Source: Ruania zhangjianzhongii (GTDB lineage: Bacteria; Actinomycetota; Actinomycetes; Actinomycetales; Beutenbergiaceae). Taken from it: a DNA stretch of 64,000 nucleotides. This document shows, one piece after another, positions 16,417-35,487 of this stretch. Under the pieces are notes generated by a model that saw only the letters and a list, made by a program, of their open reading frames with translations, did no database searches and was not told where the DNA came from. Position numbers and translations under genes: made by a program. The stretch covers positions 3,772,882 through 3,836,881 of the forward strand of contig NZ_CP042828.1 in assembly GCF_008000995.1 (NCBI RefSeq), written 5' to 3'. Position 1 is the first letter of the stretch; each line of letters opens with the position of its first letter.

Positions 16417-18045
16417 TCACCGTGGATTCCGCGGATTGGCAGAGGCATAGACGACGTGCGCCAGGCAGTACAGCGACGACGGGAGCTCGTCGAGAACGCC
16501 CGAGTCGAGCAGCGCACGGGTATGACCGAGCACCCCCTGGTTCCAGGGGGTCAGACTCGCCCAGGCCAACGACTGACGCTCGTAGGCCGGCATCCCGGTG
16601 GCACCATCGCCGTCCACAAAGCGAAAGACGCTGGGCGAACCGTCGTCTTCTGTCGTTGCCACATTCTCGGTGTAGGTGGCGGCCAGTCCGCGTAGCTCGG
16701 CCGTGCCGAACGGCGGGCGGCGCCCGGGCCGGAAGGACCGGAGGCCGCGGTAGTACTCGAGCGCGAAGTTCACATCGATCTGGGCGTGACTGGTGTCTTC
16801 AAGGACTTGGTTCGGCGGATACCAGGGCCGGTACTGCGAACGTGGGCTGTCGATGTCCCAGCCGTTGTAGGCATCCCCCTGCGGCCGCCAGTACGGCCAC
16901 ACGTAGGCCGAGCCGTCCGGCACCATGCTGTCTCGCAACGTCCACCCCAGGGCCGTGGCGCGGTCGATGTACTGACGGTCACCGGTGACGGTGGCCATCG
17001 CCGCGATGGCCCGGCCGAGGGCAAGGAAGTGGTTCAGCGGGTTGTCCATCCCGGCGTGCCACACCGGCGCATCGGGCAGCGTGACGTAGTAGCCCGACCC
17101 CTCCGTGGTCTCGCGCCACTCCGGGTCATGGACAGCGATCGCATCGGCGGCTGCCGCCAGATAGGTCTCGGCCCGCTGGGCGTAGGTCGGGTTCGACCGC
17201 AGGCCCGAGTCGCCTCGCACCAGCTGGGCGAAGAGCACCATCGGCTGCACGATCTGGCCAGTGTGCGCCTCGAAGATGTAGGGCGGCGAGTGCATCTGGT
17301 ACTCGCCCGGTGCGATATCGGTGGCCGCCGGGTCCGCACGGAGGTCTCGGAGGGTGATCAGCATCCGCTGCGGGGCTTCGGTCTTGAACCCCTCGAGCAC
17401 CCGCTGGACCGCGTAGTGAGGATCGGCCGGGTCGGCGCTCAGGCCCTCATGGGTTGTTGTTCGGTCATAGTGAGTGTTGTGCGCCGACAGGCCGAACTCG
17501 CCAGCGGCTCCCGACGTCACCGTGACGGTAGTCCAATCGGCATAGGCGAGCGCCGACCGCACTTCGAAGACCGGTTGCCCGGTCCTGTCCGGGATGGTGG
17601 CGTAGCCCACTGTCTGGTGGTGGTCCGCACGCCAGGCCGGGTGGGAGACGCCGGCGAAGTCGGTCACGCCACGTTCACTGTCCCGGCTGGCCAGCACGTG
17701 ATCGATGTGGTCGATCATCTTGTCCAGGTAGTGCGTGTCGTGAGTGGACTGATACATCAGCGCATAGCCCTGCAGCACATAGGCCTCACCCCAGGCAAGC
17801 TTCCCGCTCAGCCCGGAGCTGTCCTTGTCGTTCGTCTCGTGCTTGTACCCGTCGCCACCGTTCAGCGCAGTGTCCAGCCGATCAAAGTGCGCACGGGAGA
17901 TGAGATCGTCCGGCGCAGTGGCGCGTGCGAGCGGCGGACGGCGATCCAGGAGCGTCATGCCGACAGTGGCGGCGCCCACGATGCCTACGCCGCGCAAGAA
18001 CCCCCGGCGTCGCACCAGCCGATCATCGCGGTGCGGATGAGTCAC
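16417..18045 (-). CDS. Tat-exported alpha/alpha-toroid-like protein, paralogue of 5490-6995
   Basis: A 542-residue exported protein of unknown activity. GTG at 18045 is the start: AGGAG lies 5 nt before it, and the peptide then opens with a twin-arginine signal (LVRRRGFLRGVGIVGAA). The mature part shares ordered blocks with 5490-6995: LAWGEAYVLQGYALMY, YLDKMIDHIDHVLAS, RGVTDFAG, and EDTSHAQIDVNF near the C-terminus. Aromatic clusters such as YVWPYWRPQGDAYNGWD suggest sugar binding. It lies 63 nt upstream of the class III aminotransferase on the same strand. Like its paralogue it could be a lyase, epimerase or glycosidase; no diagnostic catalytic motif is recognised. Confidence 0.8.
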   Translation of the reverse strand: MTHPHRDDRLVRRRGFLRGVGIVGAATVGMTLLDRRPPLARATAPDDLISRAHFDRLDTALNGGDGYKHETNDKDSSGLSGKLAWGEAYVLQGYALMYQSTHDTHYLDKMIDHIDHVLASRDSERGVTDFAGVSHPAWRADHHQTVGYATIPDRTGQPVFEVRSALAYADWTTVTVTSGAAGEFGLSAHNTHYDRTTTHEGLSADPADPHYAVQRVLEGFKTEAPQRMLITLRDLRADPAATDIAPGEYQMHSPPYIFEAHTGQIVQPMVLFAQLVRGDSGLRSNPTYAQRAETYLAAAADAIAVHDPEWRETTEGSGYYVTLPDAPVWHAGMDNPLNHFLALGRAIAAMATVTGDRQYIDRATALGWTLRDSMVPDGSAYVWPYWRPQGDAYNGWDIDSPRSQYRPWYPPNQVLEDTSHAQIDVNFALEYYRGLRSFRPGRRPPFGTAELRGLAATYTENVATTEDDGSPSVFRFVDGDGATGMPAYERQSLAWASLTPWNQGVLGHTRALLDSGVLDELPSSLYCLAHVVYASANPRNPR

Positions 18046-18103
18046 GATTCTCCTGTCCGACGCGGTCCTGGCAACGCCTGTGGATGCCGTGTCACCACTG
18101 CAC

Positions 18104-19342
18104 TCACCCGCCCGCCTGGACCGTGCTGGATTGCAGCTCCGCTGCGGCGCCGGCCACCTTGGCCAGGGCGGACGCGACGGCACTGGTCTGATCCTCGGTC
18201 CCGGAGAGGTAGCGGTGCGGGAGCCAGATCGTGTCGGTGGAGACCAGGTCGGCCTGCGGGCACGGTGCCTCCGGGTAGGGCTGGCCCAGCCGGGCGGCCA
18301 CCTCCCGGGCGTCGGTGACCACTGCCTCGTTGCGGTGCAGCGGCACGTAGCCGGGCGAAGCGTGCACGCCTTCGGCGGCGAGCGCCTGCACGGCGGCGTC
18401 CCGCAGCCCGAGCCGGCCCAGCTCGGCCAGGCGCAAGATGAACAGGTGGTGCCCGTGGCTGGTGAGGTTCGGATCCGGCGGCGCGAGCTGGACGCCCTCG
18501 ACCCGCTCGAGCTCGGCGCGCAGCTGCTGGCTGCGGCTCTCCCGCAGCTCCTGGTCCGCGGGATGGCGCCGGAGCTGGGGGCGGAGCACAGCGGCCTGGA
18601 ACTCGGTCAGGCGCAGGTTGTAGCCGACGTGCTGGTGCTGATACCAGCCGCCGCCGCGGACCCGGCCCACGTTCACCAGCGAGTAGAGCGCGTCAGCGAG
18701 CGCGGGGTCGGAGGTGGTGACCAGACCGCCCTCACCGGCGGTGATGTTCTTGCTGCTCTGGAAGCTGAACGTGCCCATATCGCCGAGGGATCCGACGGCC
18801 TGGCCGCGGAAGCGGGTGCCGATCGCCTGGGCGCAGTCCTCGATCACCGCGATGCCGCGGGTGCGGCCCAGCTCGCGGAAGGCGTCCATATCGGCAGCGC
18901 GGCCGGCCAGGTGCACCGGGACGATGGCCCGGGTGCGTTCGGTGATCGCCGCGGCACTGGCCGCCGGGTCCAGCAGGTGGGTCTGCGGGTCGACGTCGGC
19001 GAAGACCGGCACGGCGCCGAGGAACAGCGCCGCAGAGGCGGTCGCGATGAACGTGTACGGCGGCACGATCACTTCGTCGCCCAGGCCCACGCCGCAGGCT
19101 CGCAGGGCCGCGACGATCGCCAGGGTGCCGTTCACCAGGGCGGTGCCGTGGGCCGCGTCCTGGTAGTGGGCGAACTCCTGCTCGAACTCGGCCACCACCG
19201 GCCCGGCAGTGCTCCCCCACTTCCCGGAGCGGTAGACCTCGAGGAGTGCTTTCTCCTCGTCGGCGTCCGGTTGCGGCCAGGTGGGAAAGTCGCCGAGGCC
19301 CTGCAGTGCAGGCGTGCCTCCATGGACGGCGAGCTCCGACAT
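18104..19342 (-). CDS. DegT/DnrJ/EryC1/StrS aminotransferase
   Basis: A 412-residue PLP-dependent sugar aminotransferase-like protein. The Schiff-base lysine is Lys198 in TFSFQSSKNITAGEGG; VIEDCAQAIG carries the cofactor Asp; NGTLAIVAAL is the phosphate-binding turn. The family usually aminates keto-sugar nucleotides or cyclitols; some members dehydrate. ATG at 19342 is favoured over ATG at 19369 because AAGGAG is 7 nt upstream. It leads the minus-strand catabolic transcript and is divergent from a second DegT gene, with which it shares only family features; both begin with the same (L/V)-x-GGTP motif. Confidence 0.9.
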   Translation of the reverse strand: MSELAVHGGTPALQGLGDFPTWPQPDADEEKALLEVYRSGKWGSTAGPVVAEFEQEFAHYQDAAHGTALVNGTLAIVAALRACGVGLGDEVIVPPYTFIATASAALFLGAVPVFADVDPQTHLLDPAASAAAITERTRAIVPVHLAGRAADMDAFRELGRTRGIAVIEDCAQAIGTRFRGQAVGSLGDMGTFSFQSSKNITAGEGGLVTTSDPALADALYSLVNVGRVRGGGWYQHQHVGYNLRLTEFQAAVLRPQLRRHPADQELRESRSQQLRAELERVEGVQLAPPDPNLTSHGHHLFILRLAELGRLGLRDAAVQALAAEGVHASPGYVPLHRNEAVVTDAREVAARLGQPYPEAPCPQADLVSTDTIWLPHRYLSGTEDQTSAVASALAKVAGAAAELQSSTVQAGG

Positions 19343-26932: not shown

Positions 26933-28231
26933 CTAGCGAATCTTGGGCCGGCGCGTGGCCCGATTGTGGATAAGTCTGCCGATCCGGTCGATTGCCTGCC
27001 GGCCGGCACCGCCGAGAACGGCGAAGCCCAGCAACGCCACCAGGGTCGGTACCAGGGCCACTGGCGCGAGCGTCTCGAGCGAGGCCCGCTCCAGCACACC
27101 GCTGCCGAGCGCAGAACCCGCGGCGATGCCCAGGTTCATCGCCACCGGTATCAGCGTTCCGGCGGTGGTGCGGTGCCGCGTACCGGCTTGGCGCATCACC
27201 CGTGTCTGGATCGCCGGCCCCAGGCCACCGACGGTCAGTCCCCAGACGAGCACGACGGCCACATCCGTGATCGCGCTGCCGCCGATCAGCATCAGCCCGG
27301 CCAGGCTGAGCGCCAGCATCCCGGCAAGCACGATGGGAACGGCCGCCGGGTAGCGATCGCTCGTGGCTCCGACGCCCACCACACCGCCGACGCCCACCAG
27401 CCCGAACAGCAGCAGCAGGAGCAGCGGTGTGGGCACGGCGCTGGGCTGGAACAGTTCGGCGACGAAGGTGAACGCCGCGAAGTGTCCGATCAGCAGGCTG
27501 CCACCGAAGGCGGTCGTGACCAGGATCGGGCCGAGCCCGCGCAGCCGTTGCCTGGCGCCCACCTCGGCCTCGGCCTCGACCGGCTGGTCCTCGTGCCGGA
27601 CCGGATAGCGCCGCAGGACCAGGAGAATGGCGGCGGCCGCCAGCAGGGTGAGCGCCGCGAGCGCCAGGAACGGCGCCCGCCAGCCGACCCACTGTGCGAT
27701 CGCGTTCCCGGCGGGGATGGCCGCTACGGTGCCGAGGGTGCCACCGAACAGCACCACCGCCGTCGCGCGTCCGATCTGTACGGCCGGCACGATCGATGCG
27801 GTGTGTGCGTTGATGGTCGACCAGAGCAGACCGGTGGCCGCTGCGGCCACCAGCCGCGAGGCCATCGCCACGGGGTAGTCGCTGGTGGTCGCGGTGACCA
27901 CAGTGGCGAACGCGGCGACCAGTAGTGCCCCGGCAATGACCGTCGGCCGCGGCACGCGGGCGGTGACTCGAACGAGGGGGAAGCTGGCCACCACCACGGT
28001 CAGCGCCCAGGCGGAGACCAGCAGCCCCGCGCGGGCTAGGGACACGTCCAGCCCGGCCGCCAGCTGCGGCAGCACCGCGGTGGGCATCATCTCGCCACTG
28101 ACCACCACGAAGATCGCCACGGTCATGGTGATCAGAGCCGGCCAGGGCAGTCGGTCCGGACTTCTCTTGCCGGCGACGGCGGAGGATCGGGTGTCGTGGT
28201 CGTCGCGGCGGCGGCGTAGCTGTTCCGTCAT
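26933..28231 (-). CDS. MFS exporter, DHA1 type
   Basis: A 432-residue major-facilitator protein with 12 predicted helices and a polar cytoplasmic loop in the middle (VRHEDQPVEAEAEVGARQR). The first helix (ALITMTVAIFVVVSGEMMPTAVLP) and the motif-C-like AIPAGNAIAQWVG fit drug/sugar proton antiporters. ATG at 28231 fits a leaderless start, TACCGT lying 7 nt upstream. The promoter has a 20-bp spacer between TTGACA and TACCGT and carries a MerR-type palindrome also found before the MerR gene at 32142, so induction by that regulator is likely. It probably exports the compound the MerR protein senses. Confidence 0.88.
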   Translation of the reverse strand: MTEQLRRRRDDHDTRSSAVAGKRSPDRLPWPALITMTVAIFVVVSGEMMPTAVLPQLAAGLDVSLARAGLLVSAWALTVVVASFPLVRVTARVPRPTVIAGALLVAAFATVVTATTSDYPVAMASRLVAAAATGLLWSTINAHTASIVPAVQIGRATAVVLFGGTLGTVAAIPAGNAIAQWVGWRAPFLALAALTLLAAAAILLVLRRYPVRHEDQPVEAEAEVGARQRLRGLGPILVTTAFGGSLLIGHFAAFTFVAELFQPSAVPTPLLLLLLFGLVGVGGVVGVGATSDRYPAAVPIVLAGMLALSLAGLMLIGGSAITDVAVVLVWGLTVGGLGPAIQTRVMRQAGTRHRTTAGTLIPVAMNLGIAAGSALGSGVLERASLETLAPVALVPTLVALLGFAVLGGAGRQAIDRIGRLIHNRATRRPKIR

Positions 28232-28236
28232 CTGAC

Positions 28237-28277
28237 CGACGGTAGAGTTTGACATTGGTGTCAATGTCAAGGTGGTG
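28237..28277. repeat. Direct repeat copy A of the MerR-type promoter
   Basis: These 41 bp are repeated at 32094-32135 with one extra base and three mismatches. The copy contains the -10, the whole palindromic operator and a GGTGGTG tail. The two copies bracket the DeoR/LacI-type regulator and polysaccharide lyase genes. Confidence 0.8.
28249..28270 (-). promoter_or_regulatory. MerR-type operator in the MFS promoter
   Basis: A perfect 9-bp inverted repeat, TTGACATTG and CAATGTCAA with 4 bp between. Read on the minus strand it begins with a -35 TTGACA; the -10 TACCGT follows after 20 bp, the over-long spacing that MerR-family activators correct by distorting DNA. Confidence 0.72.
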
Positions 28278-28281
28278 TGGC

Positions 28282-29409
28282 TCACCGGCTACCGGGGTCG
28301 CGCCGTCCGGCGCGGAGCACCAGCTGCGGAGCCACCGTCACCTTCTGCGACGAGCGCTCGGTCGCGGGCTCGAGTGAGCGCTCCACGGCGAGCCGGAGGG
28401 CGAGCCGGCCGACCTCTCGCTTGGGTGGTGCGATCGCATCCAGCGGCGGGTCAGCGAGGGCGGCGATCTCATCGTCGTAGGCGATCAGATCCAGCTGGGC
28501 GGGGATCGTCACCCCTCGCTCGCGTGCGCGTTGCGCCAGCACCCCGGCGGCGACGTCGGAGTGCACCAGAGCACCGGTGATCCCGCGGCTGGCGAACCGG
28601 TCGAGGATCTCGTCCATGCGAGTCTGCATCGCCGGCTCGTACTCCGGGGCGGAGGCGATCGTCAGGTGTTCGCTGCGCCCAGTGTCGAACAGTGGGCGCT
28701 TCGTGTCGAATCCGGCCTGCAGCCAGCCGGCCGTTGCCGTGGACTCGGCGCACACCAGCGCCACCGCCCGGTGGCCCAGGTCGGCGAGCCGCTGGAACGC
28801 GAGGCGAGCGCCCAGGGCATGGTCCGACCGGACCGAGTCGAGGTCGGTGAACTCGTCCCCGCCGTCTCGTTCCATCAGCACCACCGGCACCGCCTGCTCC
28901 TGCAGCAGCCGGTAGGTGCTCGGATCGCGTTCGGGCGTCTGGGCGGGGGTCACGACCAGCGCGCTGACGCCCCGCCTGATGATCCGGCGGATCTGTTCCT
29001 GCTCCTGTGCCACGCTGTAACCCGAGTTCGCGAACGCGATCGGCACCCGCGCGGCCGCGGCCGCCTCTTTCATCCCGTCCAGGACACGCAGGTAGTAGTA
29101 GCGAGTGGACGGGATGATCAGCCCGATGGCGCCGGCCTGCGAGCGCCGCGCCGGGCGGCGTTCCCTCGGGCTTGGGAGAGGTTCCGGGCCTCCGGTTGAT
29201 TCCCCCTGGCCTGCGGTGGGACCCGGCCGACCGACGGCGATCGCGCGGCCATACGCTCGGCGTGCGACGCCCTGGGCGACCAGGACGTTGAGGTCCCGCC
29301 GGATACTCACCGGAGACACCGCCAGCGCCGCTGCCAACGACGAGACGCTGACCTGGCCGGTGATGGCCAGCTCCCGCTCGATATACATCCGGCGTTCGGC
29401 AGCTCGCAC
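28282..29409 (-). CDS. Transcription regulator: DeoR-type HTH joined to LacI-type sensor
   Basis: A 375-residue hybrid regulator. The N-terminal 60 residues are a DeoR helix-turn-helix (VSSLAAALAVSPVSIRRDLN, then RRAYGRA); after a Pro/Arg linker, from about residue 95, comes a periplasmic-binding-type domain (GAIGLIIPSTRYYYLRVLDG, GVSALVVTPAQTPE, DLIAYDDEIAALADPPLDAI) that senses a small sugar. GTG at 29409 is chosen because GAGAGG lies 5 nt before it; an ATG at 29463 lacks a site. It is divergent from the family-8 polysaccharide lyase gene and is the obvious candidate for its control and its own. Confidence 0.85.
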   Translation of the reverse strand: MRAAERRMYIERELAITGQVSVSSLAAALAVSPVSIRRDLNVLVAQGVARRAYGRAIAVGRPGPTAGQGESTGGPEPLPSPRERRPARRSQAGAIGLIIPSTRYYYLRVLDGMKEAAAAARVPIAFANSGYSVAQEQEQIRRIIRRGVSALVVTPAQTPERDPSTYRLLQEQAVPVVLMERDGGDEFTDLDSVRSDHALGARLAFQRLADLGHRAVALVCAESTATAGWLQAGFDTKRPLFDTGRSEHLTIASAPEYEPAMQTRMDEILDRFASRGITGALVHSDVAAGVLAQRARERGVTIPAQLDLIAYDDEIAALADPPLDAIAPPKREVGRLALRLAVERSLEPATERSSQKVTVAPQLVLRAGRRDPGSR

Positions 29410-29637
29410 GTCGACCTCTCCTGAATCCGCGACCATCGGCGCCGCCGTGGTGGAACCGGTCAACCGATCAGATCGGGTTCACGGTACGCCAGCCACAGAA
29501 GGGCAGACCATTGGCGACCTGCTCGGCCCAGTGACGCGCTCGGCAGAGGTGATCGTTTGAACGGTCTGTTTTGACAGACCTGGCCGGCCAATGGATGGAT
29601 AGCGGAATCTCGAACCCTCACCGCGGAAGGTCTTGCT
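29410..29637. promoter_or_regulatory. Divergent control region between regulator and polysaccharide lyase
   Basis: A 228-bp spacer. It contains a perfect inverted repeat, GGTCTG and CAGACC at 29563-29580 separated by 6 bp, overlapping a TTGACA -35-like hexamer about 60 bp before the lyase ATG. This is the best candidate operator for the adjacent regulator; I did not find a second copy in the window. Confidence 0.5.
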
Positions 29638-32058
29638 ATGGATTCTCACGACGGCGTGCAGACGAATCTGTCCCGACGCAGCCTGCTCCTTCTTGGCTCG
29701 GCACTGCCGCTGGCAGCGGCGATCCCGGTGTTCGGTCCGGGAGCGTCGCCGGCGCACGCCGCCGATGCGTTCGAGGATCTGCGGGTGCGGTGGGCGCACT
29801 ACCTGACCGGCGGCCCCGACCTCGACCTCGACCACCCGCAGATCGCACCCCAGGTGGCCAGCCTGTCCGACGATGCCGCCGAGCACCTGGCGACTGCGGA
29901 CCACAACCCGTCAGCTGACGCCAGCATCTGGGCCGACCTGCCGATGGTCAGCAACGACGCCGCCAACATGGACCTCACCTACCAGCGGATGCTCGTCATC
30001 GCGACGGCCTGGTGCACTGCGGGCACGGACCAGCATGATGCGGCCGAGGTGCAGGAGGTCCTGATCCGCTGGTACCGGCACATGTACACCTCCTGGTACA
30101 ACCTGGAGAACTGGCGCGGCGGTAACTGGTGGTTCTGGGAGATCGGGATCCCCAGGGATCTGGGCTACCTGTCGATCTTGTTGGCCCCGGTGCTGACCGA
30201 GGAGGACCGGATCGCGGCCACCGACCGGATCCGGCGGCAGGCTCCCGACCCCAACCTGCGCACCGGCACGTCGTTGCGCGAGACCGGCGGCAACCGGGCC
30301 GACAAGGTCTTGGCCTGCATCTTGCGCGGTGTGGTCGCCCACAATGAGGATGACATCACGTTGGCGCGCGACGCGCTCAGCGACGTCGAGGGTGACGGTG
30401 CCCGGAGCCTGTTCCAGTACGTCTCCTCGGGCAACGGCTTCTACCCGGACGGTTCCTACATCGACCACGGCTACCTGCCCTATGTGGGGACCTACGGCAA
30501 TGTGGCGCTGATCGGTGTGGCCCGGTCGCTGATGCTGCTGTCGGGCAGCCCCTGGGCGGTCACCGACCCGAACGTCTCGGTGATCCTCGACGCTCCGGAG
30601 AAGTCGTTCTCGCCGTTCATCTGGAGCGGCCGGATGATGGAGACGGTGCGCGGCCGCGCCGTCTCGCGCGAGCACGAACGGGACTACGACGACGCCTGGT
30701 CCGCGGCCAACGCCGTCATGCTGCTGGCCACACAGATCGACGAGCCGTACCGCTCGACCTACCGGTCGCTGGCGAAGGGGTGGCTGACCCGGTGCAGTGC
30801 GGACTACAGCGCGGCGGCCGACCTGAGCGACCTGTCCCGCGCACTGCCCCTGCTGGCTGACCCGAACGTGCCGGCGGCGCCCGAAGGCACCGGCCATCGG
30901 CAGTTCGGCAGCCAGGAACGCATGGTGCACCGCGGCGAGGGATGGGCCTACACGGTCGCCACGTCCTCGGCCAGGATCGGGCGGTACGAGTGGGGCAACA
31001 ACGAGAACAATCTCGGCTGGCACCAGGGCGATGGTGCCGCCTACCTGCACCTGGAGCACGACCAGGGTCAGTTCGCCGACGACTACTGGCCCACCATCGA
31101 CCCGTACCGCCTGCCAGGCACCACAGCGTCCCTCACCCCGCGGGAGAGTGGCGAGTCCGGTGCCGGAACTGGCATCCCCCGCGCGGCGAACCGCTGGGCC
31201 GGCGGCGTCGGGCTGAGCGCGAGGTGGGGCACCGCCGGGATGGACCTGACCAACAGCCTGGGCACGGTCACGGCGAAGAAGTCCTGGTTCCTCCTCGACG
31301 ACATGGTGATCGCCCTTGGTTCCGGCGTCTCTGCCGACGGGGATGACGCCGAGACCATCGTGGAGAATCGGTCTTTCCCCCGCGGCCGCTCCGGGGCGCT
31401 GACCGTCGGCGGCAGGACCATCACGACGACGAACTACCGCCGCACGCCCGGCTGGGCGCATCTGGAGGATGTGGCCGGCTACGTCTTCCTCGGTGAACAG
31501 CAGGTCCGTGCCGAGGTCGCCAATCGCAGCGGGTCGTGGCAGGAGATCAACTCCGGCGCCGACACCGGCGGCAGCCCCGATGAGGTCACCCGCAGCTACG
31601 CCACCCTGGCGGTCCAGCACCCGGCCGGCACCAGCGGAGGCCAGTACGGATACGTCATCCTGCCCGGCCGAAGCCCGCAACAGACCCGGGCAGCGGTGCG
31701 GACCCTCGATCTCGAGGTGCTCCGTCAGGACGACGTGGCGCACATCGTCCGGGTGCGCCAGAGGGGCCGGTGGTTCCTGTTCGCCCACCTCTTCGCGGCA
31801 GCCACGGAGGGTAACGTGCGAGCGTCCGGACCCTGCGCGGTCCTGGCCTCCGGTACTGGCAACACCGCCGCAGTCGCGGTCTCCTCACCGTCGAAGTCGC
31901 TCGAGCACGCGAGCATCGAGCTGGACCTCGGCCGGCCCTTCCGCCGCGTGACCGCAGCACACGAACGGCTCGCGGTCACCGGCGGGCACCAGATCGCGAT
32001 CGAGGCCGAGTTCGCCCATGCAGCTGGCGCGTCGTTCGAGGCTGAGCTGCGCGTCTGA
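29638..32058 (+). CDS. Tat-exported polysaccharide lyase family 8 (hyaluronate/chondroitin/xanthan lyase type)
   Basis: An 806-residue exported lyase that cleaves a uronic-acid polysaccharide by beta-elimination. Tat signal LSRRSLLLLGSALPLAAA (11-28). The N-terminal alpha/alpha-toroid carries PL8 hallmarks: NWRGGNWWFWEIGIPRDLG (158-176), RETGGNRADK with Asn219, DGSYIDHG with His277, YVGTYG with Tyr286 and GRMMETVRGRAVSR with Arg340. The spacing of the His, Tyr and Arg is as in characterised PL8 enzymes. Beta-sandwich domains follow (YEWGNNENNLGWHQGDGAAY; C-terminal YVILPGRS). Which polymer it cleaves is not decidable. GGAAGG lies 7 nt before the ATG. It is divergent from a DeoR/LacI-type regulator. 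Confidence 0.9.
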   Translation: MDSHDGVQTNLSRRSLLLLGSALPLAAAIPVFGPGASPAHAADAFEDLRVRWAHYLTGGPDLDLDHPQIAPQVASLSDDAAEHLATADHNPSADASIWADLPMVSNDAANMDLTYQRMLVIATAWCTAGTDQHDAAEVQEVLIRWYRHMYTSWYNLENWRGGNWWFWEIGIPRDLGYLSILLAPVLTEEDRIAATDRIRRQAPDPNLRTGTSLRETGGNRADKVLACILRGVVAHNEDDITLARDALSDVEGDGARSLFQYVSSGNGFYPDGSYIDHGYLPYVGTYGNVALIGVARSLMLLSGSPWAVTDPNVSVILDAPEKSFSPFIWSGRMMETVRGRAVSREHERDYDDAWSAANAVMLLATQIDEPYRSTYRSLAKGWLTRCSADYSAAADLSDLSRALPLLADPNVPAAPEGTGHRQFGSQERMVHRGEGWAYTVATSSARIGRYEWGNNENNLGWHQGDGAAYLHLEHDQGQFADDYWPTIDPYRLPGTTASLTPRESGESGAGTGIPRAANRWAGGVGLSARWGTAGMDLTNSLGTVTAKKSWFLLDDMVIALGSGVSADGDDAETIVENRSFPRGRSGALTVGGRTITTTNYRRTPGWAHLEDVAGYVFLGEQQVRAEVANRSGSWQEINSGADTGGSPDEVTRSYATLAVQHPAGTSGGQYGYVILPGRSPQQTRAAVRTLDLEVLRQDDVAHIVRVRQRGRWFLFAHLFAAATEGNVRASGPCAVLASGTGNTAAVAVSSPSKSLEHASIELDLGRPFRRVTAAHERLAVTGGHQIAIEAEFAHAAGASFEAELRV

Positions 32059-32093
32059 CCGGCTCCGGGCCACCGCGCGTAGCCGCCGTGGCT

Positions 32094-32135
32094 CGACGGC
32101 TAGAGTGTGACATTGATGTCAATGTCACGGTGGTG
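32094..32135. repeat. Direct repeat copy B of the MerR-type promoter
   Basis: 42 bp matching 28237-28277 at all but three positions and one indel, in the same orientation. To its left GCGTAGC also resembles the sequence left of copy A, inside the MFS gene start, which suggests a decayed remnant of that gene's 5' end. Confidence 0.75.
32107..32128. promoter_or_regulatory. MerR-type operator before the MerR gene
   Basis: Perfect inverted repeat GTGACATTG and CAATGTCAC with 4 bp between, nearly identical to the operator at 28249-28270. It lies 13 bp before the MerR start codon, as expected for autoregulation. Confidence 0.7.
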
Positions 32136-32141
32136 AGTCAG

Positions 32142-32567
32142 ATGAGGATCGGTGAGCTGGCGCGACGCTCGGATGTGGCGCCCCGGCTGTTGCGCTATTA
32201 CGAGCAGCAGGGGCTGATCCAGGCCGCACGTGCCGAGAACGGCTACCGCGAGTACGCCGAGGAGGATGTAGCGCGGGCACAGCGAGTGGCGGCCATGGTC
32301 CGCTCCGGGATCCCGACCCGACTGGTCCGGGCCATCCTCGATCTGGAGACCACCCCGAGCGCTGGAGTGGCCAAGTGCAGCCGGCTCCTTGCCGAGCAGC
32401 TCGCCAGCGAGCTGACCGAGATCGAGGGCCGCATCGACTGCCTGGCGAAGAGCCGGGACACGATCCGCGGCTTTCTCGCCCAGACCGAGCACAGCGCGCT
32501 GGTCACGCCGGCGGCGACCACCGCTGCATTCGACCAGCGACCGCGGCGGCCAGTCGCTTCGGGGTGA
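32142..32567 (+). CDS. MerR-family transcription regulator
   Basis: A 141-residue regulator: winged HTH at the start (MRIGELARRSDVAPRLLRYY, then GLI and YREYAEEDVARAQRV), a dimerisation coiled coil at about 75-120 (LLAEQLASELTEIEGRIDCLAK), and a short C-terminal tail. There is no Cys-rich metal site, so an organic ligand or none is likely. ATG at 32142 is the family's usual start; ribosome site weak. It likely controls itself and the MFS exporter 4 kb away through matching operators. Its 3' end overlaps the convergent flavin monooxygenase gene by 65 nt. Confidence 0.88.
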   Translation: MRIGELARRSDVAPRLLRYYEQQGLIQAARAENGYREYAEEDVARAQRVAAMVRSGIPTRLVRAILDLETTPSAGVAKCSRLLAEQLASELTEIEGRIDCLAKSRDTIRGFLAQTEHSALVTPAATTAAFDQRPRRPVASG

Positions 32568-33621
32568 TGCCGGTCAGCACGTCCCGCGCCACCGCCCCGA
32601 GCGGTGAGCGCAGCTGGGCAACGCGGCCGGCGGCGCGGGAACTCCGCGCGATCTGCTGGCTGCGCCTGCGGCGGACGGTGTCGTAGCGCTGCAGGGCCGC
32701 CGGCAGCTCCCGGCCCCGGAGCAGCAGGGTGAGGGTGACGGCATCCTCGATGGCCTGACCGGCACCCTGGCCGAGGTCCGGGGTCATCGCATGCGCGGCA
32801 TCGCCGAGCAGCACGGTGCGGCCGCGGACGAACGAGTGCAGCGGCCGGGCGAGGTCGTGGATGTCGTGCCGGAGCACAGCGTCAGGGTCGGTGGCTTCGA
32901 CCAGGTCGCCGATCGGGTGGTGCCAGGACGCGAACCGGTCCAACACGGCCTGGCGCTCATCGGGGAAGCTCGTGCCGGCCGGCAGGGCGTCGGTGGCGAA
33001 CCAGTAGACCCGGCCGTCCGGTAGCGGCACGATGCCAAACCGCCTGCCCCGACCCCACGTCTCCCCCGCGCCCCCGCCGACCTCGGCCGGCTCGGTCGTC
33101 ACGCCTCGCCAGGCGGTGTAGCCGGCGTAGCGCAGCCCGGTGTCCAGGCCCAGGGCGTGGCGAGCAGCGCTGCGGATGCCGTCCGCCGCGACTACCAGGT
33201 CGTAGGTCTGCGCGCCGCCGGAGGCGGTGAGTGTGGGTGACCCGTCGGCGGCGACGGTGGCCGTAGCACCCGACCGGAGCGTCCCCTCGCGCAGCTGCCC
33301 GAACAGCGCCTCGTGCAGGTCGGCGCGGTGCAGCACCCGGAGGGTGTCCACCGACCCGGGAGGACTCAGCACCACCCAGCGTCCGGACGGGGACCGTTGC
33401 CCGGTCGTGGTCACCGTCTCCAGGGTCGCGGGCGCTGCCAGCACCTCACCCAGACCCACCGCTTCCATGGCGGCGATGGAGTTGCCGAACAGGGAGATGC
33501 CGGCACCCACCGCGCCCGGTTGCTCCTGCCGCTCCAGCACGGTGGCCTCGTGCCCGTCCCGCTGCAGAGCGGCGGCGGCCACCAGCCCGCCGATCCCGGC
33601 GCCGATGATCCCGATCCGCAT
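32503..33621 (-). CDS. FAD-dependent monooxygenase, group A (PHBH fold)
   Basis: A 372-residue flavoprotein. The FAD dinucleotide motif is GAGIGG with following LERQEQPGAVGAGI; the DG motif is VVAADGIRSAARHAL; the second FAD site is VLLGDAAHAMTPDLGQGAGQAIEDA. Such enzymes hydroxylate aromatic or polyketide-like compounds with NAD(P)H and oxygen. ATG at 33621 begins directly with the FAD strand; a GTG at 33627 has AGAGG 9 nt upstream and would add two residues. It is divergent from a TetR gene and probably under its control. Confidence 0.88.
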   Translation of the reverse strand: MRIGIIGAGIGGLVAAAALQRDGHEATVLERQEQPGAVGAGISLFGNSIAAMEAVGLGEVLAAPATLETVTTTGQRSPSGRWVVLSPPGSVDTLRVLHRADLHEALFGQLREGTLRSGATATVAADGSPTLTASGGAQTYDLVVAADGIRSAARHALGLDTGLRYAGYTAWRGVTTEPAEVGGGAGETWGRGRRFGIVPLPDGRVYWFATDALPAGTSFPDERQAVLDRFASWHHPIGDLVEATDPDAVLRHDIHDLARPLHSFVRGRTVLLGDAAHAMTPDLGQGAGQAIEDAVTLTLLLRGRELPAALQRYDTVRRRRSQQIARSSRAAGRVAQLRSPLGAVARDVLTGITPKRLAAAVAGRMQRWSPPA

Positions 33622-33663
33622 ACTCACTGCTCGCTTCCTCTTGCCGTATTCCATCACGAACCC

Positions 33664-33669
33664 TACAGT
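33664..33669 (+). promoter_or_regulatory. -10 element of a leaderless promoter for the TetR gene
   Basis: TACAGT lies 7 nt before the ATG at 33677, in the 55-bp spacer shared with the divergent monooxygenase gene. Confidence 0.5.
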
Positions 33670-33676
33670 TGGGCAC

Positions 33677-34288
33677 ATGCCCAAGTCGAACGCACAAGAC
33701 CGAGGGGACCTCTCCGCCGTCGCCCGTGGCCACGCTGTCCGCACCAGACTGCTGACCGCAGCAGCGGACCTGATCGGCGAGATCGGCTGGAACGCCGTGA
33801 GCACCCGGAACCTGGCCGAGCGCGCCGGAGTGGGGCCCGGCCTGGTGCACTATCACTTCGACTCGTTGCAGGCGCTGCTGCGCCAGGCGGCGCTGGCCCA
33901 GATGCGCCACGTCCTCGAGGAGGTGAACGCAGCGGTCGGAGAATCCGGCGACCTCGCCGGGAGCCTGGAGGCCATGCTGTCCCAGCTCGATGACTACACC
34001 GGCGCCGACCCGTCGTCCCTGCTGGTGATCGAGGCCTACCTCGCCGCCACCCGCGACCCGGAACTGCACACCCAGATGGCCGAGCTGATGCTGGGCTGGC
34101 GCACGGCCGTCTCCGAGGCACTCAGCGCCGCCGGGCATCCCCACCCGGAGGCCGCCGCCGCCCTGCTCCTGGCAGCACTGGACGGTCTGTTCCTGCAGAA
34201 GGGACTGGACCCGGACCTCAGCCACACCCAGGTCGCACCGCTGCTGCGCCAACTGATCCAACCCGAGACCACAGGAGGCAACCGATGA
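33677..34288 (+). CDS. TetR-family transcription regulator
   Basis: A 203-residue repressor. The HTH is clear (AADLIGEIGWNAVSTRNLAERAGVGPGLVHYHF); the C-terminal helical domain binds an unknown ligand. Leaderless start at 33677. It sits between two flavin monooxygenase genes: divergent from one and overlapping the next by ATGA. Both oxygenases are therefore likely to be its targets, perhaps to modify or inactivate a toxic aromatic compound (inference). Confidence 0.9.
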   Translation: MPKSNAQDRGDLSAVARGHAVRTRLLTAAADLIGEIGWNAVSTRNLAERAGVGPGLVHYHFDSLQALLRQAALAQMRHVLEEVNAAVGESGDLAGSLEAMLSQLDDYTGADPSSLLVIEAYLAATRDPELHTQMAELMLGWRTAVSEALSAAGHPHPEAAAALLLAALDGLFLQKGLDPDLSHTQVAPLLRQLIQPETTGGNR

Positions 34289-35487
34289 AAGCACTGATCT
34301 GCGGGGCCGGGATCGCCGGTCTGGCCCTGGCGAACCGACTCGACGCCCACGGCTGGGACGTGATCGTCCTCGAGCGCACGCCGGGACCGCGCGAGGAGGG
34401 GTACATGGTCGACTTCTCCGGCCCCGGCTTCGAGGCAATCACCGCGATGGGGCTGCGGGAGCAGCTCCTCGCTGCCGCCACCTCTGTGGGCGAGTTCCGT
34501 TACATCGACCGGGGCGGCCGCGCCACCGTGAGCCTCGACTACGACCGGTTCGTGACCGCCCTCGACGGCGAGATCGTGAGCATCATGCGACCCACGCTCG
34601 AACACCTGCTCCAGGAGTCGCTGAGCGAACGCGTCGACGTCCGCTACGGCCTCAGCATCGACGAGGTCACCGATCAGGCCGATTCCGCGACCGCCGTGCT
34701 CACCGACGGCACTCCGGTGACAGCGGATCTCGTGGTCGGCGCGGACGGGGTGCACTCCCGGGTCCGCGCGCAGATCCTCGGCCCCGAGCGGGATTACCTG
34801 CGCTATCTCGGCATGCACACCGGCGCCTTCATCTTCCACGACCCTGAACTGTTCGACCACGTACACGGCCGGTTCGTCCTCACCGAAACCCTCGACCGGC
34901 AGATGGGCTTCTACGGTCTGAGCGAGGGCCAGGTGGCGGTGTTCACCGTGCACCGGACGGCAGACCCCACCCGGCCGGAGGACCCGCGGGCCGAGCTGCG
35001 GTCCCAGTTCGCCGGGATGGGCGACATGGTCGACCGAGCACTGCGGCACTGCCCGCCACCGGCGCAGATCTACTACGACCAGGTCGCTCAGATCCTCGCA
35101 CCCCGCTGGCACACCGGGCACGTCGCCTTGGTCGGAGATGCGGCGTACGCCGTGTCCTTGGTAGCCGGGCAGGGCGCGTCGCTGGGTATCGCCGGTGCCT
35201 ACGTGCTGGCCGAGATGCTCGCCGCACACGCCACCGTGCCCGAGGCGTTGGCCGAGTACGACCGGCGCTGGCGCCCCGTCGCCACCGAGGTGCAGGACTC
35301 CGCCCGGGACCGGGTGGTCGAATGGTTCCTGCCTACCTCGCGGCTCACCCTGCTGCTGCGCCGCTGGGGCTTCCGGGCGATGAAGCTGCCCGGGTTGAGC
35401 AAGGTGATGGTCGGCTCGCTGCTGCCGAAGGACCACCAGACTGTCACCGAGCTGGCGAGCGCCACTCACTGGGAGACATCGGCCTGA
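34285..35487 (+). CDS. FAD-dependent monooxygenase, group A
   Basis: A 400-residue flavoprotein: FAD motif GAGIAG with VLERTPGPREEGYMVDFSG, DG motif VVGADGVHSRVRAQIL, second FAD motif ALVGDAAYAVSLVAGQGASLGIAGAYVL. The family includes tetracycline-inactivating Tet(X)-like and aromatic hydroxylases; the sequence alone does not choose. Overlaps the TetR gene by ATGA, so it is co-translated with its likely repressor. The C-terminal helix (RLTLLLRRWGFRAMKLPG) may be membrane-associated. Confidence 0.88.
   Translation: MKALICGAGIAGLALANRLDAHGWDVIVLERTPGPREEGYMVDFSGPGFEAITAMGLREQLLAAATSVGEFRYIDRGGRATVSLDYDRFVTALDGEIVSIMRPTLEHLLQESLSERVDVRYGLSIDEVTDQADSATAVLTDGTPVTADLVVGADGVHSRVRAQILGPERDYLRYLGMHTGAFIFHDPELFDHVHGRFVLTETLDRQMGFYGLSEGQVAVFTVHRTADPTRPEDPRAELRSQFAGMGDMVDRALRHCPPPAQIYYDQVAQILAPRWHTGHVALVGDAAYAVSLVAGQGASLGIAGAYVLAEMLAAHATVPEALAEYDRRWRPVATEVQDSARDRVVEWFLPTSRLTLLLRRWGFRAMKLPGLSKVMVGSLLPKDHQTVTELASATHWETSA

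Follow-up and report, generated by a model that had tools for sequence, protein, structure and literature searches.

A regulator–lyase module that probably entered a MerR–MFS divergon in Ruania, leaving a copy of the intergenic promoter on either side

In divergons of the MerR family an overlong promoter spacer and autoregulation are general behaviour, and MerR promoters have spacers of about 20 bases. Usual target-site duplications are much shorter than 41–42 bases. In the open-licence literature we found nothing related on the operator letters, the MerR–MFS pair or the promoter duplication described here. The locus lies in a 64,000-nucleotide stretch of the Ruania zhangjianzhongii genome (contig NZ_CP042828.1, positions 3,772,882 to 3,836,881; the window), whose own genome is labelled G000 in the comparisons below. 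From left to right it carries genes for an MFS transporter (-), a DeoR/LacI hybrid regulator (-), a PL8 lyase (+) and a MerR regulator (+), and all four were matched by Pfam models, in agreement with the first-pass annotation of this DNA:

26933..28231, minus strand: MFS transporter gene, 432 aa, ATG at 28231 (PF07690, E 1.3e-37; predicted to be leaderless, 7 nt after its -10 box)
28282..29463, minus strand: DeoR/LacI hybrid regulator, start codon uncertain (PF08220, DeoR HTH; PF13377, LacI-type sensor)
29638..32058, plus strand: PL8 family polysaccharide lyase, 806 aa (Pfam domains PF08124, PF02278 and PF02884; tree, see below)
32142..32567, plus strand: MerR family regulator, 141 aa (PF13411, E 4.4e-16)
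28278..32093, no strand: putatively inserted regulator–lyase module (~3.8 kb; single-copy relatives have no such module between their MFS and MerR genes)
29563..29580, no strand: palindrome GGTCTGT-TTTG-ACAGACC, lying between the genes of the hybrid regulator and the lyase (candidate operator of the former)

The MerR helix-turn-helix scored 59.2 bits against a cut-off of 21.6. The protein also matched 14 NCBIfam models (ZntR, CueR, CadR-PbrR, SoxR and MerR among them), each below its curated cut-off; assignment to a named metal- or redox-sensing subfamily was not supported. All three lyase domains (N-terminal alpha, super-sandwich and C-terminal) scored above their cut-offs. The palindrome between the two inner genes has one exact occurrence in the genome and one other site at 3 mismatches, which suggests that the inner pair may answer to its own regulator and not to MerR.

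The module is bracketed by a direct repeat, annotated at first pass as 41 bp and 42 bp and confirmed here by a local alignment which ends at exactly those coordinates. The alignment of 28237–28277 with 32094–32135 spans 42 columns, of which 38 are identical, 3 are mismatched and one is a 1-base gap; its score is 62, whereas none of 500 single-base shuffles scored above 31. The two copies lie in the same orientation, as expected if one intergenic region of a divergent MFS–MerR pair was doubled. Allowing up to 3 mismatches, the 20-base core gave four hits in the window, representing two places on both strands (0.01 expected), and with up to 2 mismatches these were the only two places in the whole 5.1-Mb genome. 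Looser scoring extends the repeat to 28174–28326 and 32037–32189; this extension arises with loose scoring only, has no null model behind it and was not counted as homology. The features assigned within the repeat, with boxes placed by eye and by consensus from the sequence, are:

28237..28277, no strand: MFS-side copy of the putatively duplicated intergenic promoter (38/42 aligned columns identical to 32094–32135)
28239..28244, minus strand: TACCGT, predicted -10 box for the MFS gene (14/14 other sites have TANNNT here, with the same 20-base spacer)
28249..28264, no strand: 16-base dyad, the predicted operator for MerR (from dyad counts at 16 sites)
28265..28270, minus strand: predicted -35 of the MFS promoter, TTGACA (TTGACA or TTGACC in 14/14 other sites; hexamer favoured by the search pattern)
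32094..32135, no strand: MerR-side copy of the intergenic promoter, by alignment to the MFS-side copy (leftward MFS promoter decayed, -35 GTGACA, -10 TAGCCG)
32101..32106, plus strand: TAGAGT, predicted -10 box for MerR, immediately next to the operator (TARANY in 16/16 sites, partly fixed by the search pattern)

That each copy contains a full palindromic operator holds, in that a 22-base palindrome (9+4+9) is perfect in both. Across the sites of 14 relatives, however, a shorter dyad of 16 bases (7+2+7), which excludes the -35 hexamer, is the better description, with 0–2 mismatched pairs compared to 0–3 for the longer palindrome. The two operators are near-palindromes, so they also pair in inverted orientation.

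The first-pass annotation proposed that the MFS and MerR genes were once adjacent, and that relatives with such a pair around a single promoter copy, lacking the lyase module, would support insertion. Using a 28-letter operator–promoter pattern we found the site in 15 of 396 genomes of the order, and in 11 of these the MFS and MerR genes stand divergently around one site (G086, G027, G018, G014, G093, G285, G308, G043, G153, G166 and G074), the other four being G000, G007, G327 and G236. A search of the class, which shares genomes with that of the order and is not independent of it, found the site in 13 of 246 genomes and added two further MFS–site–MerR pairs (G603 and G438). Adjacency of the two genes is thus supported by 13 single-copy divergent pairs, which span seven families and lack the module: no regulator or lyase match at E 1e-3 was found in the roughly 3 kb covered at each locus. 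The opposite pattern, in which relatives would all carry the four genes and both copies, was not seen, as two sites occurred in G000 only in both searches; the pattern was built from early hits, favours similar sites and detects second sites at up to 2 mismatches, missing weaker ones. The genus is taken as Ruania (Ruaniaceae, Micrococcales) from another of its members, G006, which shares 5214 identical bases with a Ruania rhizosphaerae record. Among eight genomes of the genus, a MerR match at E 1e-22 or better was present in G000 and G007 only, as was the site, and the single-copy outgroups therefore come from other genera.

Some sites have other neighbours. The site in G327 lies between MerR and another gene, which we take to be oxidoreductase-like, and that in G236 is accompanied by a weak MerR (32%) and an MFS match more than 800 bases away. 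At the sites of G539, G557, G424 and G579 there is a MerR match of 31–41% and no MFS match was found.

The promoter reading in the MFS direction is based on 14 relatives, G007 included, in which a -35 of TTGACA or TTGACC is followed by a 20-base spacer and a TANNNT -10 (TAGCGT in 9/14), with CAT, the reverse of ATG, 6 or 7 bases past the -10 in 13/14; the -35 was fixed by the search pattern, as were some of the other letters, which leaves the remainder of the -10, the CAT and the flanks as independent evidence. The MFS-side copy in the window fits this layout. The arrangement typical of MerR promoters, -35 and -10 hexamers 19–20 bases apart with a dyad between them, was found at the MFS-side copy and in all 14 relatives, with letters partly fixed by the pattern. 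In the MerR-side copy both hexamers of the MFS promoter are lost (GTGACA and TAGCCG) while the 22-base palindrome is still perfect, so the MFS promoter looks broken there, as would be expected of an unused half under relaxed selection. Conversely, the MFS-side copy retains GGTGGTG, a sequence belonging to the MerR leader. The idea that the module entered between two genes with a shared promoter, which is now present twice, is supported with one amendment: what the genes shared is more aptly described as a region between them with two overlapping divergent promoters and one operator than as a single promoter.

The second genome of the genus with the site, G007, is collinear with the window here, matching it at 83% as far as 28292 and again, at 81%, from 31980 onwards. 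Between the matched flanks it has 14 bases, and 3687 bases of the window (28293–31979), comprising nearly all of the regulator and lyase, are missing. No lyase at E 1e-60 or better was found in G007, although it retains lyase residues 787–805 of 806 at 94.7% identity, and since this remnant was kept, the module was present in the common ancestor of the two genomes and lost in G007, a step which the first-pass annotation had not foreseen.

Whether the promoter was doubled as early as the module entered is a separate question. Beside MerR, G007 reads TAGGCT where the window reads TAGAGT, and a MerR-side operator is not recognisable there (best match with 10/20 positions mismatched, equalled by 249 of 1000 shuffles). 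This would be expected if the module had entered between the operator and MerR with nothing being duplicated, and MerR had later regained an operator by copying or by convergence, which a common regulator selecting for alike sites could favour. We consider this course of events unlikely. A gapped alignment of the whole G007 MerR leader runs through the operator region and is equalled by 1 in 2000 shuffles (2 in 2000 for the last 48 bases), which suggests an eroded operator copy. Furthermore, the MerR-side copy in the window retains CGACGG, which in the relatives is the flank of the MFS -10 region. The right flank GGTGGTG is identical at 7/7 positions between the window copies but variable in the relatives (6/7 in G007 and G043, 1–4 of 7 in the other 12), and such flanks favour an old duplication. 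Finally, at the centre of the dyad G000 and G007 both read GGTG in their MFS-side copies, the MerR-side copy reads GATG, and among the 13 other relatives GATG occurs in 7 and GGTG in none; this one base speaks against recent copying from the MFS side. We infer from the G007 leader alignment and this centre base that the duplication predates the split of G000 and G007, although we are less sure of its age than of the insertion's, because the evidence of the centre is a single base.

A full intergenic copy at either end would also be left if the whole MFS–MerR unit had first been duplicated in tandem and the inner copies of both genes, MerR and MFS, had afterwards given way to the module. By eye the MerR-side copy may even keep a decayed MFS start (CGTGGCTCGACGGC, compared to CATGCTTCGACGC in G308 and G074). 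Yet two sites within 2 mismatches occur in G000 alone, in a search which misses weaker second sites, and under strict scoring the homology ends at 28237–28277 and 32094–32135 with no coding remnant, making this route very unlikely.

The origin of the lyase was examined in a tree of the window lyase, 15 of 80 lyase loci and 9 of 25 family matches (the window's own excluded). The window lyase pairs with that of a Pseudarthrobacter MAG (99/99) within a seven-row group from Pseudarthrobacter, Isoptericola, Knoellia and Myceligenerans (100/100), separate from a Ruaniaceae clade (100/100) of nine rows, two of them identical in sequence. L050 and L052, two further lyases from Ruania, sit elsewhere in the tree on long branches. 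Identity is 66–68% to L080, L081 and L083, three of the nearest lyases, compared to 42–46% to the ten best family matches. By its sequence kinship, then, the lyase is foreign to the main lyase clade of its family. Of the two lines of evidence suggested for the inner genes in the first-pass annotation, phylogeny is thus informative, placing the lyase outside that clade, and codon usage is not: in synonymous codon choice the regulator ranks at the 47th percentile and the lyase at the 68th when set against 129 background ORFs picked mechanically (candidates with GC3 <0.75 or <150 aa dropped; GC3 of the MFS gene is 0.871). Codon usage and GC were rejected as signs of foreign origin, both inner genes being native-like, which implies that the acquisition was not recent or was from a similar genome.

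A four-gene order with both copies could conceivably be ancestral, with recombination between the repeats having removed the module from the single-copy relatives. Loss of the module did occur in G007, but its breakpoints there lie within the module, and repeat recombination was not the route. The 13 single-copy genomes in seven families would each need clean or shared losses, the lyase lies outside the main lyase clade of its family, and the lyase tree does not follow the species tree. We regard this history as extremely improbable.

No donor locus was found among the 80 lyase loci kept from 139 lyase relatives. With a filter of >60 bits, a regulator match was present in two of the 80, adjoining the lyase in L094 (29%) and about 4.4 kb away in L114 (30%), and there was none in the DNA examined around the nearest lyases (L080–L086, some on short contigs). 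The ORFs around the lyase in L080, L081 and L085 differ among themselves, as judged by eye. A divergent regulator and lyase pair of this exact kind was not found elsewhere among the loci examined.

The first-pass annotation had seen no transposase or terminal inverted repeat, and this stands for what we scanned: no transposase family was matched among 14 proteins (nine chosen neighbours and the five of the locus), and no terminal inverted repeat was found at the inner ends of the module (150 + 150 bases), where the best inverted score of 19 is close to the shuffle mean of 19.6 and is equalled by 602 of 1000 shuffles. Among the 25 listed of 74 inverted pairs, only the palindromic operators pair.

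Taken together, the single-copy relatives, the scar in G007, the foreign kinship of the lyase and the decayed hexamers lead us to propose, with a probability of about 78%, that a 3.8-kb module entered a MerR–MFS divergon, that the intergenic promoter was doubled and that the copies then specialised. The ancestral state would have been a MerR divergon, in which the MFS and MerR genes were transcribed away from each other on either side of a single operator. Prior to the split of G000 and G007 within the genus Ruania, the DeoR/LacI-type regulator and PL8 lyase would have been inserted there, and the intergenic region would have ended up flanking the module on both sides. MerR is predicted from sequence to bind both copies, activating the MFS gene across a 20-base spacer from the MFS-side copy and regulating its own gene from the MerR-side copy, where the MerR -10 is followed immediately by the operator. 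Later, the MerR-side copy would have lost its unused leftward MFS promoter, and a deletion would have removed nearly all of the module in G007. We infer binding and regulation by MerR, a duplication as old as the insertion, and a single event behind both.

More specifically, but only tentatively and with the odds against it, a transposase-free insertion may have duplicated the complete divergent promoter in one step, so that both old genes kept a binding site and the copies could then specialise; the doubling may instead have come before or after the insertion. If general, insertions of this sort (e.g. by fill-in of a staggered break) would let foreign modules enter between divergently controlled genes with neither broken. 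The predicted MerR operator and MFS promoter are conserved over several actinobacterial families, and the locus offers a readable record of a foreign gene pair entering a regulated divergent pair without disruption, with three states visible: before (the single-copy relatives), after (G000) and lost again (G007).

In comparison with known systems, the lyase resembles PL8 hyaluronate and chondroitin lyases (HylB, chondroitinase AC) in carrying all three PL8 Pfam domains; it matches the NCBIfam model for HylB at E 5.3e-96, but with 322 bits it falls below the HylB cut-off of 1350. In four genomes of the family (G002, G004, G009 and G013) a relative of the regulator (33–37%) adjoins a PL8 gene on the same strand, whereas here the two are divergent, and the lyases of those pairs are 31–46% identical to that of the window; the pairing of such a lyase with a regulator of the DeoR/LacI type is thus nothing uncommon. 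As in transposon insertion with target-site duplication, the insert lies between direct repeats of its target, although here the repeat is 41–42 bases long, with no transposase among the 14 proteins and no terminal inverted repeat. The locus resembles the MerR family divergons of the SoxR, CueR and ZntR type, in which a MerR HTH protein adjoins its likely target and a dyad operator lies within an overlong spacer (20 bases here, as predicted), and differs from them in having the operator twice, flanking an insert. The kind of event is ordinary, but the example is unusually readable.

When the MerR protein encoded in the window (32142-32567) was aligned with those of relatives at loci L033, L034-L037, L064, L070-L072 and L075, C79 and C100 proved invariant in all 11 sequences. 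None of the NCBIfam models that the window protein matches gives it a score reaching the model's cut-off, and it is possibly a redox or metal sensor belonging to a subgroup that has no model in NCBIfam.

The 3' end of the MerR gene overlaps that of the convergent FAD monooxygenase gene by 65 bases (32503-32567). Another difference between the window and G007, the relative of the same genus, adjoins MerR (window 32517-35388 versus 17285-18417 of the G007 locus, L033) and is flanked by matching stretches. The FAD monooxygenase, TetR and FAD oxidoreductase genes of the window are replaced here by other ORFs in G007, which still carries a remnant tail of the FAD oxidoreductase gene.

The MFS-side promoter copy retains the former rightward -10 box of MerR (28243-28248), which now points antisense into the gene of the inner DeoR/LacI hybrid regulator, at its 3' end; this predicted box may be an antisense start under MerR control.

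The same operator is found in G327, a genome of the same order (L077, 1501-1528), where it lies between MerR and a non-MFS ORF, which we take to be oxidoreductase-like.
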